From Dyella tabacisoli (lineage in GTDB: Bacteria > Pseudomonadota > Gammaproteobacteria > Xanthomonadales > Rhodanobacteraceae): a stretch of DNA of 64,000 nt. The notes beneath the pieces are model-generated. The model was not told the origin of the DNA, searched no databases, and saw only the letters and a program-made list of their open reading frames with translations. Shown piece after piece: positions 1,379 through 50,386 of the stretch. The stretch's first letter is position 1, and the number at the start of each line of letters is the position of its first letter. A program made the position numbers and the translations under genes. The DNA lies in assembly GCF_003350925.1 (NCBI RefSeq), contig NZ_KZ857175.1, positions 186,001 through 250,000 of the forward strand, in the 5' to 3' direction.

Positions 1379-1738
1379 TGGGGTTACCCCCTCCCAACCT
1401 CCCCCTGCAGGTCCCGAAAAGGGGACTCCCTTCGGTCGCGGGGGAGGGGTAAAAGCAACGAAGCGGCTGCTTTTGACGTTGCTCTTGGCTCTTGACCTCG
1501 GGGCCCCTGTGCGTCGGTGAGGGTCGGACGACAAGGCCCGCAGGGGACTCGGCATGGATGCCGAGTCCTTTTCGCCAGTGCAAGGATGCACTGGCGAAAA
1601 GCCCGGCCGACCCTCACGCACCCGAAGGGCGACGCACCGGGGTGGCCTTTCTTTGGGTTACTTTTCTTTGGCCACTCAAAGAAAAGTGACTCGGCCTCCG
1701 GCAGGAGGTCGAAAGCCCGCCGCAGGCGACCCAACCCG
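1379..1738 (+). repeat. Long intergenic repeat, copy 1 (REP-like end plus structured core)
   Basis: About 360 bp closely matching a second copy at 9419-9760 on the other strand. The left end is a GC-rich palindromic segment of the CTCCTCCCCC type found elsewhere in the window. The rest is a strongly structured core. Indels between the copies are not multiples of three, so the short reading frames inside are unlikely to be genes. The right end stops about 103 bp before the AI-2E-family permease start, in the same orientation. It fills most of the 523-bp gap between the phosphatase and the permease. Confidence 0.85.
1517..1690 (+). ncRNA. Candidate structured RNA core, copy 1
   Basis: Outer stem P1 is GTGAGGGTCGG at 1517-1527 pairing with 1607-1617. 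It encloses hairpin A (1545-1554 with 1559-1568, loop TGGA) and hairpin B (1569-1582 with 1587-1600, 14 perfect pairs, loop AGGA). Hairpin C follows (1657-1669 with 1678-1690, 13 pairs including one G-T wobble, loop GGCCACTC). Compared with copy 2, A and C each differ at three pairs with both arms changed, so pairing is kept. Loops containing GGA resemble CsrA/RsmA sites. Transcription is not shown, and a DNA-level role such as a mobile hairpin element is also possible. Confidence 0.5.
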
Positions 1739-3474: not shown

Positions 3475-5457
3475 TTACTTACCGGCCAGCATCGCCGCGA
3501 TTTTCGCCATATGCGACTCGGCGGTTTCACGCACGACTTCTTTATCGGCCTCGGGGTCTTTGCCTTGCCAATGCAAGTCGACCTGGGGCAGTTCATGCAG
3601 GAAGCGGCTGGGTTGGTTGCTGTGGACCTCGCCGTAACGCTTGGTTTTGGCCGACCACGACAAGGTGAGCATTTCTTTGGCGCGGGTAATGCCGACGTAC
3701 ATCAGGCGGCGTTCTTCGTCGATGCGGCCTTCGTCCAGGGCGCCTTCGTGCGGCAAGGTACCGTCTTCGCAGCCGACGATAAAAACGAAGCGAAATTCCA
3801 GCCCCTTGGCCGAATGCAGGGTCATCATGCGCACGGCGTTGCCGGGCTCGTCGCGGTCGGCATGGCTGAGCAGGGCCAACTGGCTGGCGAGGTCGCCGAC
3901 GCTGTTGCCGCCTTTCTGCATGGCGCGGAACCAGTCGGCCAGTTCGCGCAAGTTGCCGAGTCGGCGATCGCGCAGTGCGGCATCAGTGGTGCTGGCGGCG
4001 ATTTGTTCGGCGTAGCGGGTGCGGGTGAGTACGGTATCCACCAGGTCGGCGGCGTTTTGATGCAGCGAAGCGCTGCGCAGTTCGTCGAGCAAGTTGGTGA
4101 ACGATGACAGCGCGGCGGCCGGGCGCGGGGTGAGCTGGCGTAGCACGGCGTCGCTGCGGGCGGCATCGAGCAAGGAGGCGTGTTTGGTCTGCGCGATCTG
4201 GCCGAGTTTTTCCAGGGTGGTCGCGCCGATTTCCCGCTTGGGTACGTTCACCACCCGCAGAAACGCAGCGTCGTCGCTGGGGTTGGTCAGCAGGCGCAGA
4301 TAGCAGAGCAGATCCTTCACCTCGGCGCGGTCGAGAAAGCTCAGCGCGCCGGTGAGGTGGTAGGGGATGCGTGCCAGCCGCAGCGCTTTTTCGAGCGGGC
4401 GGGCCTGGAAATTGCCGCGATAGAGAATCGCGATGTCGTGCCAGCGCGCCTTGTGTTTCTCGGCCAGGGTGGTAGCGATGGCGGCGACGCGTTCGGCCTC
4501 GTGTTCGTTTTCCTTGCACTCCAGAACGCGGATCGGCGGACCTTCCGGGTGGTCGCTCCACAGCTTTTTTTCGTGCAGATGGGGGTTGTTGGCAATCAAC
4601 ATATTGGCGGCGCGCAAAATGCGTTTGCCGCAACGATAGTTTTGCTCCAGCTTGATGACGCGCAGGTTCGGCCAGTCTTTACCGAGCTGGTCGATGTTCT
4701 CGGGATTGGCGCCGCGCCATGCATAAATCGACTGATCGTCATCGCCCACGCAGGTAATGCGGCCGCGCTCGCCGGTCAGTAGCTTGAGCAGGCGATATTG
4801 CGCGTCGTTGGTGTCTTGGTATTCGTCTACCAGCAGGTAGCGCAGACGCTCTTGCCACGCCGTGCGGGCCTCTTCGTCGGTTTCGAGGATTTGCAGCGGC
4901 AGGCGGATCAAATCGTCGAAATCGACGGCGTTGAATGCGGCCAGGCGCGCTTGATAGAGCTGGTAGATCATCGCCGCGTCCAGCTCTTTCGGGCTGCGTG
5001 CGGCGGCTTGCGCCTGCTCCGGCGATAACCCTGCGTTTTTCGCGCGGCTGAGCAGGTTGCGAATGCCGAACAGCGCGTCCGATTTGATGCCTTTGGGCGC
5101 CAGCTCTTTGACGATGCTTTCGCTGTCGTCCGCATCCAACACCGAAAAGCCGCGGCGCAAGCCGGCGCGCGCATGCTCGATCTGCAAAAACTTCAGCCCC
5201 AGCGCGTGGAACGTGCACACGGTAAGCGCTGCCGCATCTTCGGAGCTGATGAGCTTGCCGACGCGCTCGCGCATTTCGCGCGCCGCCTTATTGGTAAAGG
5301 TGATCGCGGCGATCTTCGCCGGCGCCAGTTTCTTACGCGCGATCAAATACGCGATCTTTTGCGTAATGACCGAGGTCTTGCCGGAGCCGGCGCCGGCCAG
5401 CACGAGGAGCGGGCCATCGCAATGTTCGACGGCGGCCAATTGTTGCGGGTTCAGCAT
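3475..5457 (-). CDS. rep: ATP-dependent DNA helicase Rep
   Basis: The 660-residue protein closely follows the UvrD/Rep superfamily 1A layout. It starts MLNPQQLAAV and has Walker A GAGSGKT at residues 22-28. Later motifs are AAITFTNKAAREM, LLVDEYQDTN, the CVGDDDQSIYAWRGA motif III, and C-terminal MMTLHSAKGLEF and YVGITRAKE. Length and motif details fit Rep better than UvrD, which is usually longer. Rep is a 3'-5' helicase that clears proteins ahead of replication forks and helps restart them. The start at 5457 matches the conserved N-terminus. It diverges from tdk. Confidence 0.93.
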   Translation of the reverse strand: MLNPQQLAAVEHCDGPLLVLAGAGSGKTSVITQKIAYLIARKKLAPAKIAAITFTNKAAREMRERVGKLISSEDAAALTVCTFHALGLKFLQIEHARAGLRRGFSVLDADDSESIVKELAPKGIKSDALFGIRNLLSRAKNAGLSPEQAQAAARSPKELDAAMIYQLYQARLAAFNAVDFDDLIRLPLQILETDEEARTAWQERLRYLLVDEYQDTNDAQYRLLKLLTGERGRITCVGDDDQSIYAWRGANPENIDQLGKDWPNLRVIKLEQNYRCGKRILRAANMLIANNPHLHEKKLWSDHPEGPPIRVLECKENEHEAERVAAIATTLAEKHKARWHDIAILYRGNFQARPLEKALRLARIPYHLTGALSFLDRAEVKDLLCYLRLLTNPSDDAAFLRVVNVPKREIGATTLEKLGQIAQTKHASLLDAARSDAVLRQLTPRPAAALSSFTNLLDELRSASLHQNAADLVDTVLTRTRYAEQIAASTTDAALRDRRLGNLRELADWFRAMQKGGNSVGDLASQLALLSHADRDEPGNAVRMMTLHSAKGLEFRFVFIVGCEDGTLPHEGALDEGRIDEERRLMYVGITRAKEMLTLSWSAKTKRYGEVHSNQPSRFLHELPQVDLHWQGKDPEADKEVVRETAESHMAKIAAMLAGK

Positions 5458-7934: not shown

Positions 7935-9344
7935 TCACGACCAATCCGCGTGAAAGCTGCCGGGCTGATCGATACGTTCGAACGTATGCGCACCGAAGTA
8001 GTCGCGCTGCGCTTGCAGCAGGTTGGCGGGCAGATGTTCGGCGCGGTAGCTGTCGTAGTAAGCGATGGCGGAGGCGAAGCACGGTACCGGCACCCCGGCT
8101 TGAACCGCGCCGGCTACGACATCGCGCAGGGCTTGCTGGTATTGCGTGGCGATGTCGCGAAAATACGGATCGAGCAGCAGATTAGCCAGTTGCGCTTCGT
8201 GCGAGTAGGCGTCGGTGATCTTTTGCAGAAAGCGGGCGCGGATGATGCAGCCGGCGCGGAAGATCTTCGCAATGGTGCCGTAAGGTAGCTGCCAGTGGTA
8301 CTCGTCGGAGGCGGCACGCAATTGCGCGAAGCCCTGGGCATAGGAAACGATTTTGCTGAGATACAGCGCACGGCGCACGGCCTCGATAAAGGCGCCGCGA
8401 TCGCCGTTGAATGCCGAGGGCGCCGGCCCGGTCAGCAGTTTGCTGGCGATGACGCGCTCGTCTTTCAGTGCCGATAGCAGTCGCGCGAATACCGACTCGG
8501 TAATCAGCGGCAGCGGCACGCCGAGATCGAGTGCGCTCTGGCTGGTCCACTTGCCGGTGCCTTTTTGCGCGGCCCGATCGAGAATCACATCGACCAGATC
8601 CTTGCCGCTTTGTGGATCTTTTTTACCGAAGATATCGGCGGTGATCGCGATCAGATAACTGTCCAGCTCGCCCTCGTTCCAATCGGTATAGACCTTGGCC
8701 AACTCGGCATTGGACAGACCAAGCACTTGCTTGAGCACGGCATAGCTTTCGGCGATCAATTGCATATCGCCGTATTCGATACCGTTATGCACCATCTTGA
8801 CGTAATGCCCCGCTCCATCCGTGCCCATATAGGCCACGCAGGGTTCGCCGTCGGGGGCGCGGGCGGCGATTTCAGTAAGGATGGGCGCGACCAAGTCGTA
8901 AGCATCGCGTGGCCCGCCCGGCATGATCGAGGGACCGTGCAGAGCGCCCTCTTCACCGCCGGAGACGCCCGTGCCGATGAAGTGCAGGCCGGCCGCGCTG
9001 AGTTCGCGCTCGCGCCGTATCGTGTCTTTGAACAAGGTATTGCCGCCGTCGATCAAGATGTCGCCCTGGTCCAGCAGCGGCTTTAGTTCGGCGATGGTGG
9101 CGTCGGTAGCTTCGCCGGCCTTGACCATGAGCAGGATGCGGCGTGGTTTTTCCAATGAGTCGACGAAGTCTTTGAGTGTGTAGGCGGGGATCAGCTTGCG
9201 GCCTGGATGGGCGGCGACTACTTCATCGGTTTTTTCGCGGCTGCGGTTGTAGATGGATACCGCGTGGCCGCGGCTTTCGATGTTGAGGGCGAGGTTTCGG
9301 CCCATGACGGCCATGCCGATTACGCCGATCGCTTGTTGGGTCAT
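7935..9344 (-). CDS. gnd: 6-phosphogluconate dehydrogenase (decarboxylating)
   Basis: The 469-residue enzyme converts 6-phosphogluconate and NADP+ to ribulose-5-phosphate, CO2 and NADPH in the pentose phosphate pathway. The Rossmann start [14 protein letters not shown] is followed by [10 protein letters not shown]. The substrate motifs [11 protein letters not shown] and [13 protein letters not shown] carry the catalytic Lys and His. The C-terminus (GAHTFERID, then FHADW) is typical. The length matches the homodimeric enterobacterial type. AGGA lies about 8 nt before the ATG. The 5' leader is C-rich and is preceded by the long repeat (copy 2) in the same orientation. Confidence 0.95.
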
Positions 9345-9418: not shown

Positions 9419-9760
9419 CTGGGTTGGTCGCCTGCGGCGGGCTTTCGACCTCCTGCCGGAGGCCGAGTCACTTTCTCTTGAGTGGCCAAGAGAAAGTAAC
9501 CAAAGAGAAGGCCACCCCGCGCGTCGCCCTTCGGGCTTGTGAGGGTCGGCCGGGCTTTTCGACAGTGCATCCATGCACTGGCGAAAAGGCATCGACATCC
9601 CTGTCGATGCCCCTGCGGGCCTTGTCGTCCGACCCTCACCGACGCACAGGGGCCCCAAGGTCAAGAGCAAGAGCAAGGTCAAAAGCAACGTCAAAAGCAG
9701 CGAGCGCTGCGCTTTTGCTCCTCCCCCTACGTGTAGGGGGGGGGGCTGGGAGGGGGTGAG
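9419..9760 (-). repeat. Long intergenic repeat, copy 2
   Basis: Second copy of the 1379-1738 element, on the minus strand, filling most of the 450-bp gap between gnd and the ABC operon. Its 3' end lies about 75 bp before the gnd start. The outer end (9717-9758) is the REP-like palindrome with a run of ten G. The core keeps all stems of copy 1 despite substitutions and single-base indels. A short GTC/AGC-rich stretch (about 9660-9700) is longer than in copy 1. Confidence 0.85.
9467..9639 (-). ncRNA. Candidate structured RNA core, copy 2
   Basis: On the minus strand the same fold forms as in copy 1. P1 pairs 9629-9639 with 9539-9549. Hairpin A pairs 9602-9611 with 9588-9597 (10 perfect pairs, loop GGGA). 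Hairpin B pairs 9574-9587 with 9556-9569 (one mismatch, loop TGGA). Hairpin C pairs 9488-9500 with 9467-9479. The apex of hairpin A reads ACAGGGATGT, which matches the central part of the published CsrA consensus RUACARGGAUGU. It lies upstream of gnd in the sense orientation. Confidence 0.5.
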
Positions 9761-9794: not shown

Positions 9795-10289
9795 CTAAGC
9801 GTCAGGTTTTTTTCTCAGCCCAGTCGCGGGGCGTGGCGTATAACGCATGGAAACCAGCGCTACCCGTGTGCCCACGCGCACGTAACGCTGTGGTCCGGTG
9901 ACTGAAACTTCGCCGAATTCCAGTCGTTGACCATCCAGGCTCAGCACGGCCAATGGCTTGGTCAGGCCGATTTTCGCCGGATCGAAATCGCTTAGCGGGC
10001 GCCAACTCAACACCGACGCTGCCGCGATTTCGGTCAATTCGCCGAGGCGGCCTTCATCGGCACGTGTTGGGGTGCCGTCGGTACGCCACCAGTGACCGTC
10101 GCGCTTGGCGTAATGCTCGGTGGGGGTGCCTTGCAGGCTTAGTTCGATCTGGGTGATGGCCTCAGGGGCGATGCTAAGCAGGGTTTCTTTCGCGTGTTGC
10201 TGGTCGCGCTGTAGTTGCCATCCGGTCAGCGCGAGCAAGGCGCTGACACCGAGCAGCAAGCTCAGGCGTGTGCGGGTGGCTCGCTTCAT
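9795..10289 (-). CDS. DUF4340-like membrane-anchored accessory protein of an ABC operon
   Basis: A 164-residue protein with an N-terminal anchor (LSLLLGVSALLALTGWQL, residues about 8-25) and a soluble part containing HWWRTDG and RYVRVG-type strands. These resemble DUF4340 proteins that accompany GldF/GldG-type ABC transporters. It would face the periplasm. The start at 10289 overlaps the upstream stop as ATGA, indicating translational coupling. It is the last gene of a four-gene operon. DUF4340 membership is my inference from short motifs and context. Confidence 0.7.
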   Translation of the reverse strand: MKRATRTRLSLLLGVSALLALTGWQLQRDQQHAKETLLSIAPEAITQIELSLQGTPTEHYAKRDGHWWRTDGTPTRADEGRLGELTEIAAASVLSWRPLSDFDPAKIGLTKPLAVLSLDGQRLEFGEVSVTGPQRYVRVGTRVALVSMRYTPRPATGLRKKPDA

Positions 10290-31601: not shown

Positions 31602-32819
<1,218 letters not shown>

Positions 32820-48154: not shown

Positions 48155-49267
48155 ATGTCCATATCGCATAGCCCGGTGGTGATCCGTTTCGGTCGCCTCG
48201 GCGACATCTTGTTGCTGCAGCCTTTGCTGCAAGAGCTGCATCGGCGCTATGGCATGCCGTGCCGCCTGCTGGCGGTAGGCACATGGCCGGCGCCGCTCTA
48301 TGCGAAGCAGCCAGAGGTCGGCGAAGTCATTGCCTTGGAGGCGGCGCATCGGCCCTTGTTATTGAGCGTGCAGCGTTGTCGCGCCGTGCTGGCGCTGCGG
48401 CGGATGCGCGATGCGCCGTTTTACATCTGCGAACCCGAGCCGCGTGCGTTGGCCAAAATACGCCGCATGCTGGCCTTGGCCGGTGTTGCCCAAGATCACT
48501 GCGTGTTTATCACCGAGACCTCGGCGATGAGCGAGGTGCACTGGGTCGATCGAATGCTGGCCTTTGGCATGCATACGCCGAAGGCGTTCACCGCGGTGGC
48601 CAAGCCCGCCGCCGCGACCGTAGCGGCGCCTCGATTACAGGTATGTGCTGCCGAGTGTGCGGACCTCGATCATTGGCTGGATACCCATGGCTTGCGCGGC
48701 CATCCGTTAGTGCTGCTGCAACCGGCGAACAAACGCACCATACGCTGGAGCGGTGTACGTCACGCCGCCGACGACGATAAATCCTGGCCGGTCGAGCGCT
48801 GGGCGGCGCTGACGCAGGCTGTTCTAGCGCGGCGGCCGGATGCCCGCGTGCTGCTGTGCGGTTCACCGGCCGAGGCGGCCTATCTGGAAACGATACGCAT
48901 CGCCTGCGGCGATCCAGCGGTCATAACCGTCGCGGGAGAATTGCCGCTTGGTCGACTCAAAGCGTTGCTATCGATAGCCCACAGCATGATTTCGGTGGAT
49001 ACCGGGCCGGCCCATATCGCCGCTGCGGTGGGTTGCCCGCTGGTCGTGCTGTTCGGCTCCGGCTCGCCTTTGCAATGGATGCCGCGCAGCGCATGCCAAA
49101 GTGCGGTGAGCGCGCTTGGTGGGCCGCCGCTCAGTCGGCGTGTGGATGCCATTACCTTGGCGCAAGTCATCGTGGCGTGGCAGCAGTTACCGCCGCGTGC
49201 ATTAAATATCGCGGAGGCTGTATACCAATCTGCAGGCACGGGCGTTATGGATCACTCCGCCGGCTAG
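48155..49267 (+). CDS. Glycosyltransferase family 9 (heptosyltransferase-like), copy A
   Basis: The 370-residue protein has the GT9 fold. HSPVVIRFGRLGDILLLQPLL is the N-terminal acceptor domain start (read in parts), PLVLLQPANKRTIRWSG comes in the middle, and the C-terminal donor motif is ISVDTGPAHIAAAVGCPLVVLFG. Members add heptose or other sugars to lipopolysaccharide core in the cytosol. The start is uncertain (48155 ATG versus 48149 GTG). A paralogue follows 24 bp later in the same direction. The 47919-48154 gap holds only the antiporter repeat and no other feature I can see. Confidence 0.85.
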   Translation: MSISHSPVVIRFGRLGDILLLQPLLQELHRRYGMPCRLLAVGTWPAPLYAKQPEVGEVIALEAAHRPLLLSVQRCRAVLALRRMRDAPFYICEPEPRALAKIRRMLALAGVAQDHCVFITETSAMSEVHWVDRMLAFGMHTPKAFTAVAKPAAATVAAPRLQVCAAECADLDHWLDTHGLRGHPLVLLQPANKRTIRWSGVRHAADDDKSWPVERWAALTQAVLARRPDARVLLCGSPAEAAYLETIRIACGDPAVITVAGELPLGRLKALLSIAHSMISVDTGPAHIAAAVGCPLVVLFGSGSPLQWMPRSACQSAVSALGGPPLSRRVDAITLAQVIVAWQQLPPRALNIAEAVYQSAGTGVMDHSAG

Positions 49268-49291: not shown

Positions 49292-50386
49292 ATGCAAGAC
49301 ATGGCACTCGCCCAAGTTCCGTCCAGCCGCGCCGTACAACCTGCTCTCAGCCCTGTGGTGATTCGCTTCGGTCGTCTGGGCGACACGGTGCTGCTGCAGC
49401 CGCTGCTACATAAATTGCATCTGCGTTACGGCCGGCCGTGCCGATTGCTGGCGCTGGGGGGCTGGCCGCCGGCGCTCTATGCAGGGCAACGCGATGTGTC
49501 CAGGGTGATTACCTTCCGTACCCAGCACCGACCCTTATGGATGAGTCCGCTGCGATTGCGCGCGGCTCTCGCGTTGCGGAGCATGCGTGAGGCGCCGTTC
49601 TACATCTGCGAGCCGGAGCTGCGTACGCAAACCAAAGTGCGCCCGATGCTGGCGCTCGCCGGCATCCCGGCCGAGCACTGCGTCTTTATTGAAAATACGC
49701 CGTTGCAGCAAGACGAGCATTGGGCCGATTGGCTGGTGCGCTTTGCTGAAACGACGCCGGCGGCTTTTCGCCAAACGCATGGACAGACCATCGCGTCCGT
49801 GCGCGCAGCGCCACAGTTACAGGCCAGTGCGGACGAGCGTAATCATTGCGACGCCTGGTTGTATGCGCGCGGCTTGAATGACAGCCCGTTGGTGCTACTG
49901 CAGCCAGCCAACAAACGCACCATGCGCTGGAACGGCGTGCGCAAAGGCGCGGACGACGACAAATCGTGGCCGGTTTCCCGTTGGGCTGCGCTGGCACGCG
50001 CCATCATCGATCGGCTACCCGGCGTGCGGGTACTGCTTTGCGGTGCGCCGGCCGAGGCTCGCTATCTCGATTCGATCCAGCAGGCTGCCGCTCATGCCGC
50101 GGTTTCGGTCGCTGCGGCCGATTTGCCGCTGGGCCGTTTGCGCGCCTTGCTCGAAGTCGCGCACAGCATGGTGTCGGTAGATACCGGGCCGGCTCATCTG
50201 GCCGCTGCGATGGGATGTCCCCTGGTGGTGCTGTTTGGTGCGCGATCGCCCTCGCAATGGGCGCCGCGCAGCGCGCGCGACAGTGCGGTCTCTGTGCTGG
50301 GCGGGCTGCCATCGATCCATCGCGTGGATGAAATCGAAACGGCCCAAGTGGTGGATGCCTGGCATCGGTTGCCGTTGCGTCGGTAG
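49292..50386 (+). CDS. Glycosyltransferase family 9 (heptosyltransferase-like), copy B
   Basis: The 364-residue paralogue of the preceding gene shares SPVVIRFGRLGD, APFYICEPE, VLLQPANKRT, DDDKSWPV and SVDTGPAH. The two differ in their N-terminal tails and in the acceptor-facing middle region, so they may add successive sugars or use different acceptors. The pair arose by tandem duplication in an ancestor, because their sequences have diverged throughout. No LPS biosynthesis genes lie beside it. Confidence 0.85.
   Translation: MQDMALAQVPSSRAVQPALSPVVIRFGRLGDTVLLQPLLHKLHLRYGRPCRLLALGGWPPALYAGQRDVSRVITFRTQHRPLWMSPLRLRAALALRSMREAPFYICEPELRTQTKVRPMLALAGIPAEHCVFIENTPLQQDEHWADWLVRFAETTPAAFRQTHGQTIASVRAAPQLQASADERNHCDAWLYARGLNDSPLVLLQPANKRTMRWNGVRKGADDDKSWPVSRWAALARAIIDRLPGVRVLLCGAPAEARYLDSIQQAAAHAAVSVAAADLPLGRLRALLEVAHSMVSVDTGPAHLAAAMGCPLVVLFGARSPSQWAPRSARDSAVSVLGGLPSIHRVDEIETAQVVDAWHRLPLRR

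Follow-up and report, generated by a model that had tools for sequence, protein, structure and literature searches.

Two copies of one repeat in the window, the whole stretch of 64,000 nucleotides of Dyella tabacisoli DNA analysed here, belong to a larger genome-wide family of which the original prediction had seen a part, and the comparison of many members lets us conclude with high confidence that the predicted fold is selected and that the tail would adopt a triplex pseudoknot. We lean towards regarding the repeat as an interspersed element that is mobile-like but non-autonomous, with selection acting on its ends as a single strand that folds. According to this proposal, the full form would consist of two unlike copies, inverted and tail-out, with single copies as solo ends or remnants, and each end would encode a single-strand fold of about 230 nt comprising an outer stem, a closing stem, two GGA-loop hairpins, a pseudoknot and a terminal hairpin, in which the pyrimidine first loop of the H-type pseudoknot would lie as a third strand in the major groove of the second stem. 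The functional strand would be RNA, the GGA hairpins would bind RsmA (CsrA), the triplex knot would guard or mark the 3' end and an enzyme acting on the ends would have moved the element. If true, bacteria would have a triple helix that is natural, widespread and supported by covariation, present in up to tens of copies per genome, and the orphan TwoAYGGAY RNA would find its place as the head of a dispersed element. Additionally, two questions would become testable, namely the titration of RsmA/CsrA by repeats and whether the triplex fold serves mobility or 3'-end stability.

The window copies and the fold of the head

Copy 1 (type A, plus strand, head to tail 1379-1745) lies between the start of a minus-strand gene at 1318 and the start of a plus-strand gene at 1842, and copy 2 (type A, minus strand, 9419-9760) between the end of a minus-strand gene at 9795 and the start of gnd at 9344. 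The original prediction had matched 1379-1738 (plus) with 9419-9760 (minus), and these coordinates hold, with 85% identity and with indels between the two stretches. It had also described compensated changes in two hairpins, which we could confirm: in hairpin A (GGACTCGGCA 1545-1554 / TGCCGAGTCC 1559-1568 in copy 1, GGCATCGACA 9611-9602 / TGTCGATGCC 9597-9588 in copy 2) three positions per arm differ between the copies and every one is compensated, and in hairpin C three pairs differ (GTTACTTTTCTTT at 1657 versus GTTACTTTCTCTT at 9500), each compensated, with one T.G wobble retained. The genome-wide family of at least 51 copies, the pseudoknot with its triple helix, the GGA loops, hairpin D (GGCCTCC/GGAGGTC) and the inverted pairs had escaped it. 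RNA folding of the heads compared to shuffled sequences gave z = -8.0 for copy 1 and -5.0 for copy 2 and, because the same stems covary over 30 diverse copies, the fold seen in the window is not due to chance. Furthermore, in copies collected from many genomes the head stems and both tail stems, S1 and S2, covary, so the further claim that the fold itself is selected is now supported by covariation over many sequences and many genera.

The outer stem P0 of copy 1 (GTGCGTCG 1509-1516 with CGACGCAC 1630-1637, plus strand) was assigned by eye; it is imperfect in many type A copies and, also by eye, is re-paired otherwise in type B copies and relatives (TGCAGCG/CGCTGCA, TACCGC/GCGGTA). The closing stem P1 (TGAGGGTCGG 1518-1527 with CCGACCCTCA 1607-1616, plus strand; 9540-9638, minus strand, in copy 2, from copy comparison and folding) shows two-sided changes in 9 of 11 pairs, with 82% of cells paired. 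A short triloop hairpin, CCC-GCA-GGG (1537-1545, plus strand), was recognised by eye, as were its variants in relatives (CCGC-GCA-GCGG, CCCC-GAA-GGGG, GCAC-GCA-GTGC); a candidate CCCCT...AGGGG pseudoknot was rejected, AGGGG being an arm of this small hairpin, which covaries locally. Hairpin A (1545-1568, plus strand, with loop CATGGATG of the CsrA/RsmA type; 9588-9611, minus strand, with loop CAGGGATG in copy 2, from copy comparison) and hairpin B (1569-1600, plus strand, loop CAAGGATG) carry two-sided changes in 8 of 9 and 10 of 14 pairs, respectively, and in each of them the GGA of the loop is constant (29/30) while the stems vary freely. Taken over the 30 diverse copies, P1 and hairpins A and B comprise 34 pairs, 91% paired, with two-sided changes in 27, a level of covariation reached by none of 500 shuffles and to which no slid register came close. 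Hairpins A and B are nearly perfect Watson-Crick helices, with 2 G.U among about 690 cells. Over the genomes, heads are of at least two kinds, having either GGA hairpins or a UGAG...CGAGU hairpin that by eye resembles a K-turn.

A pyrimidine third strand in the tail pseudoknot

In copy 1, the pseudoknot stem S1 (1642-1675, plus strand) pairs GTGGC (1642-1646) with GCCAC (1671-1675), which belongs to the hairpin C loop, and shows two-sided changes in 5 of 5 pairs. Of 128 distinct sequences, 91% form at least 4 bp of this stem, compared to 29% when permuted, and it exists as GTGGC/GCCAC, GTGCT/AGCA, TGTC/GACA and TCGCC/GGCGA. Hairpin C, which forms stem S2 (1657-1690, plus strand; GTTACTTTTCTTTG 1657-1670, loop 1671-1676, CAAAGAAAAGTGAC 1677-1690), covaries as well, with 99.8% of cells paired and two-sided changes in 11 of 15 pairs. 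A hairpin loop thus pairs with an upstream strand and covaries with it, as in an H-type pseudoknot, and the pyrimidine tract between S1 and S2, L1 (TTTCTTT, 1648-1654, plus strand), is the first loop of that pseudoknot and makes a parallel Hoogsteen match to AAAGAAA (1678-1684). The corresponding structure of copy 2 (9467-9515, minus strand) has S1 from GTGGC (9515-9511) and GCCAC (9486-9482), S2 from GTTACTTTCTCTTG and CAAGAGAAAGTGAC, and L1 as TTCTCTTT (9509-9502), whose parallel match is AAGAGAAA (9479-9472). Hairpin D (GGCCTCC-GGCA-GGAGGTC, 1693-1710, plus strand) has compensated variants, CCACCGGCAGGTGG and CCCCGGCAGGGG, found by eye. An intrinsic terminator was considered and rejected, no U-run following the hairpin on either strand by eye.

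L1 matches the purine strand of S2 in parallel (T to A, C to G) perfectly, at 7/7, in 85% of 115 distinct sequences, whereas permuted L1 gave 31% perfect matches and a maximum of 44% in 1000 permutations, in a test that ignores kinship and uses sequences gathered with a model containing an average L1. Among 50 asymmetric L1 tracts, the parallel match was found in 70% and the antiparallel one in 12%. A third strand of pyrimidines in parallel orientation is recognised by such mirror matching, which is not what palindrome repair would yield. The parallel covariation of L1 with the purines therefore points to a pyrimidine-motif triple helix that covaries.

In this regard, an intrastrand triplex of class IV has been defined for bacterial DNA (PMC4666352), and the tail agrees with it in the 5' to 3' order of third strand, pyrimidine strand and purine strand and in its parallel T.A-T and C.G-C triples. 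Class IV and the TM-ECO repeats, as described there, share with our repeat this order on one strand and the dispersal in bacterial genomes, but TM-ECO is a G/C-rich purine-motif triplex of class II, whereas the repeat described here is A/T-rich and of the pyrimidine type and also has a large, folded head and a stem that makes the pseudoknot; neither 'pseudoknot' nor Xanthomonas occurs in the main text of PMC4666352. A known pseudoknot has the same predicted topology, from which the repeat differs in being multi-copy and in having at least 7 matched triples that include C.G-C. Near the repeat in three loci of family members (L115, L137 and L165) we also observed elements of the form CCCTCTCC...GGAGAGGG...GGGTGAGGG, which resemble the TM-ECO purine-motif triplex.

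Candidate CsrA/RsmA hairpins and alternative roles of the fold

CA(N)GGANG is the hairpin site of CsrA/RsmA, and the head hairpins end in this motif, which gives the head several putative loops of this kind. In relatives from other families, among them Pseudoalteromonas and further genera, the heads pass the Rfam TwoAYGGAY model with 51-65 bits (threshold 43) and the match stops 1-20 nt upstream of the tail, and the Aeromonas copy reached 41.5 bits, just under the 43-bit threshold. TwoAYGGAY (RF01731; clan CL00106, the CsrB clan, with RsmW and RsmV) is like the head of the repeat in having two GGA-loop hairpins within a closing stem; the Rfam model, as matched, does not cover the triplex pseudoknot or the multi-copy tail-out layout, which have no mention in the parts of the TwoAYGGAY papers PMC2864571 and PMC4333381 considered. 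The TwoAYGGAY covariance model found no match in the window copies or family members, and a scan of the window against Rfam returned no family at threshold. The original statement that no named family has this layout thus stands for the window copies and the layout as a whole, but not for the head, which in other genera is TwoAYGGAY. In the AYGGAY loops the GGA is always there and the Y fits one hairpin per window copy (ATGGAT and AAGGAT in copy 1, AGGGAT and ATGGAT in copy 2).

CsrB and RsmZ sequester RsmA/CsrA on GGA hairpins. The copies could similarly be kept because their transcripts sequester RsmA dimers on paired GGA hairpins, with the triplex knot stabilising the 3' end, an explanation that fits the constant GGA in freely varying stems but that we consider rather unlikely. 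In its favour, CsrA binding was predicted for TwoAYGGAY by Gardner and Eldai (PMC4333381), the D. tabacisoli genome has one csrA, and Xanthomonas is known to have an sRNA from a different family that sequesters RsmA; RsmU of X. campestris, likened here by description, has several GGA motifs as the repeat does and binds RsmA, whereas binding is predicted for the repeat, and RsmU occupies one locus, within a 3' UTR, and is reported to have no relation to known families (PMC7694677). Additionally, strict CsrA-type hairpins were present in 22 of 42 repeat genomes with csrA and in none of the 8 essentially complete genomes lacking it (p = 0.006), an association that is suggestive only: the strict criterion was chosen after a looser GGA-hairpin criterion, tried earlier on much the same data, had shown no csrA association (p = 0.71). 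Counted by family, p rises to 0.11, one family accounting for 6 of the 8 genomes that lack csrA, and adding 8 incomplete genomes with no csrA match, 5 of them with sites, gives p = 0.13. The same element is present in genomes without csrA and nearly half of the csrA-containing genomes have no strict sites; binding is therefore not its core function, and the predicted RsmA binding, though likely, would be at most lineage-specific.

The fold could also act at the DNA level: when the repeat becomes single-stranded in replication or transfer, its DNA would form hairpins together with an intrastrand triplex of class IV, and these would serve integration or functions of the nucleoid. This is unlikely in our judgement, even though the topology equals that of the published triplex (PMC4666352), the copies sit between genes and hairpins A and B have hardly any G.U, as expected of single-stranded DNA hairpins. 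An RNA that drifts slowly would be expected to show more G.U than this, and copying or selection at the DNA level would agree with such a near lack. However, S2 retains the T.G wobble and shows class-wide 64 G.U versus 0 A.C cells, 51 of the 64 at one position and from a covariance model that favours G.U, which points to the head-to-tail strand, and the heads of some lineages are, by eye, K-turn-like, the K-turn being an RNA motif. We therefore favour RNA as the functional strand, with DNA a possible one. Finally, gene conversion between copies or template switching could keep the palindromes perfect with no selection on the fold, and the module-like shuffling of hairpin variants and the unusual perfection of hairpins A and B would agree with this. 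Such homogenisation is very improbable, as template switching gives inverted or direct copies and not the mirror match of L1 with the purines, and GGA loops have stayed fixed while their stems changed.

Distribution, arrangement and signs of mobility

The D. tabacisoli genome (5.07 Mb in 33 contigs) contains at least 51 copies with a length of 200 bp or more, dispersed over it and two of them in the window; this is a minimum count from a search in which 40 candidates were scored. About 40 are of type A and 11 of type B, and hairpin variants are shuffled between them as modules; family members often have 10 or more copies each. The tail model detected the repeat in 69 of the 274 Gammaproteobacteria sampled, representing 61 of 222 genera, and, in a phylum-wide sample, in 54 of 299 genomes, including one family of another proteobacterial class. 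Named matches are Aeromonas, Pasteurella, Pseudoalteromonas, Burkholderia, Paraburkholderia and a megaplasmid of the fusobacterium Ilyobacter, those of Burkholderia and Ilyobacter being scattered copies. Searches of phages and E. coli gave no match, and a search of the literature for the sequence or such repeats found nothing relevant. An identical tail-like copy without clear S1 was observed at about 4001-4045 in a Burkholderia cepacia replicon (L221, lpdA-aceF interval) and in a matching B. arboris stretch (L222).

In D. tabacisoli, each type B copy lies 80-215 bp from a type A copy, always inverted and tail-out. In other genera, the nearest second copy within 1.5 kb was tail-out in 17 of 19 cases, tandem in one and tail-in in one, by a hand count over loci fetched for a single copy. 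According to a simple gene caller, for which the window served as training sequence, the copies sit between genes, with the tail toward a neighbouring gene's stop codon in 34 of 51 and with just 3 in divergent promoter regions. In one genome (G185), some dozen loci share a unit of about 546-561 bp with fairly sharp ends, 87-93% identical between them, half or enlarged units being found at further loci, and there the unit has imperfect terminal inverted repeats as MITEs do. The repeat is like MITEs and REP/BIME in being short, non-coding and interspersed, in its inverted pairs and in its preference for gene 3' ends, but its folded ends are much longer and more complex, no target duplication was visible at 14 G185 loci, where the exact ends are uncertain, and no linked transposase or other mobilising gene was found. 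Its units of 230-560 bp also set it apart from REP/RAYT, a palindrome of 20-40 bp with a RAYT gene. Thus the MITE-like nature raised in the original prediction as a way to refute it applies in so far as the repeat is apparently mobile with inverted ends, while its hairpins go far beyond simple terminal inverted repeats. Y1_Tnp occurs in 186 of 274 genomes compared to 69 for the repeat, in a survey of presence, and D. tabacisoli has one weak match (E 5.5e-4).

A copy occupies the gnd site in both genomes of the genus, that of D. tabacisoli included, and none is present at the 24 more distant family loci examined. Orthologous copy sites can be common to a genus at 82% identity, and movement is therefore not recent everywhere. 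Sites without a copy, at the gnd locus of more distant family members and in G356, were considered as precise empty sites and rejected, their diverged flanks hiding the junction. We have moderate confidence in a mobile-like element with a fold at each end. A broader reading is tentative, possible rather than probable: a class-wide mobile element, including TwoAYGGAY, with ends that are recognised, in the form of folded RNA or single-stranded DNA, by way of the triplex pseudoknot and with a head that has swappable regulatory hairpins, RsmA-binding or K-turn-like, would be a new kind of transposable element.

An autonomous element was sought between distant tail-out copies and rejected, these intervals holding a DpnII/MboI-type nuclease and proteins without Pfam match but no transposase, and the genes may be chance neighbours. 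The nuclease gene (L203, 1108-2025) lies between two tail-out copies 1.4 kb apart and other such intervals contain single genes without Pfam match; they may represent cargo or chance. Contigs begin or end in or beside the repeat in D. tabacisoli (C10:179761, C2:646076) and start there in G243, G551 and G568, so assemblies probably break at the repeat and the copy counts are too low. In the genus relative (L082), about 15-20 tandem GGCTCTT heptamers lie upstream of the copy that precedes gnd, at its 5' edge, where the window copy at gnd has a few imperfect ones. The 5' edge of copy 2 has a G/C-rich inverted repeat (9711-9750) that recurs alone at 31659-31698 (40 nt, 80% complementary), far from any copy, and is therefore probably a separate small repeat. 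Lastly, the window contains a direct repeat (48674-48894 and 49856-50076, 71%) inside two adjacent genes of like size, which are probable paralogues.
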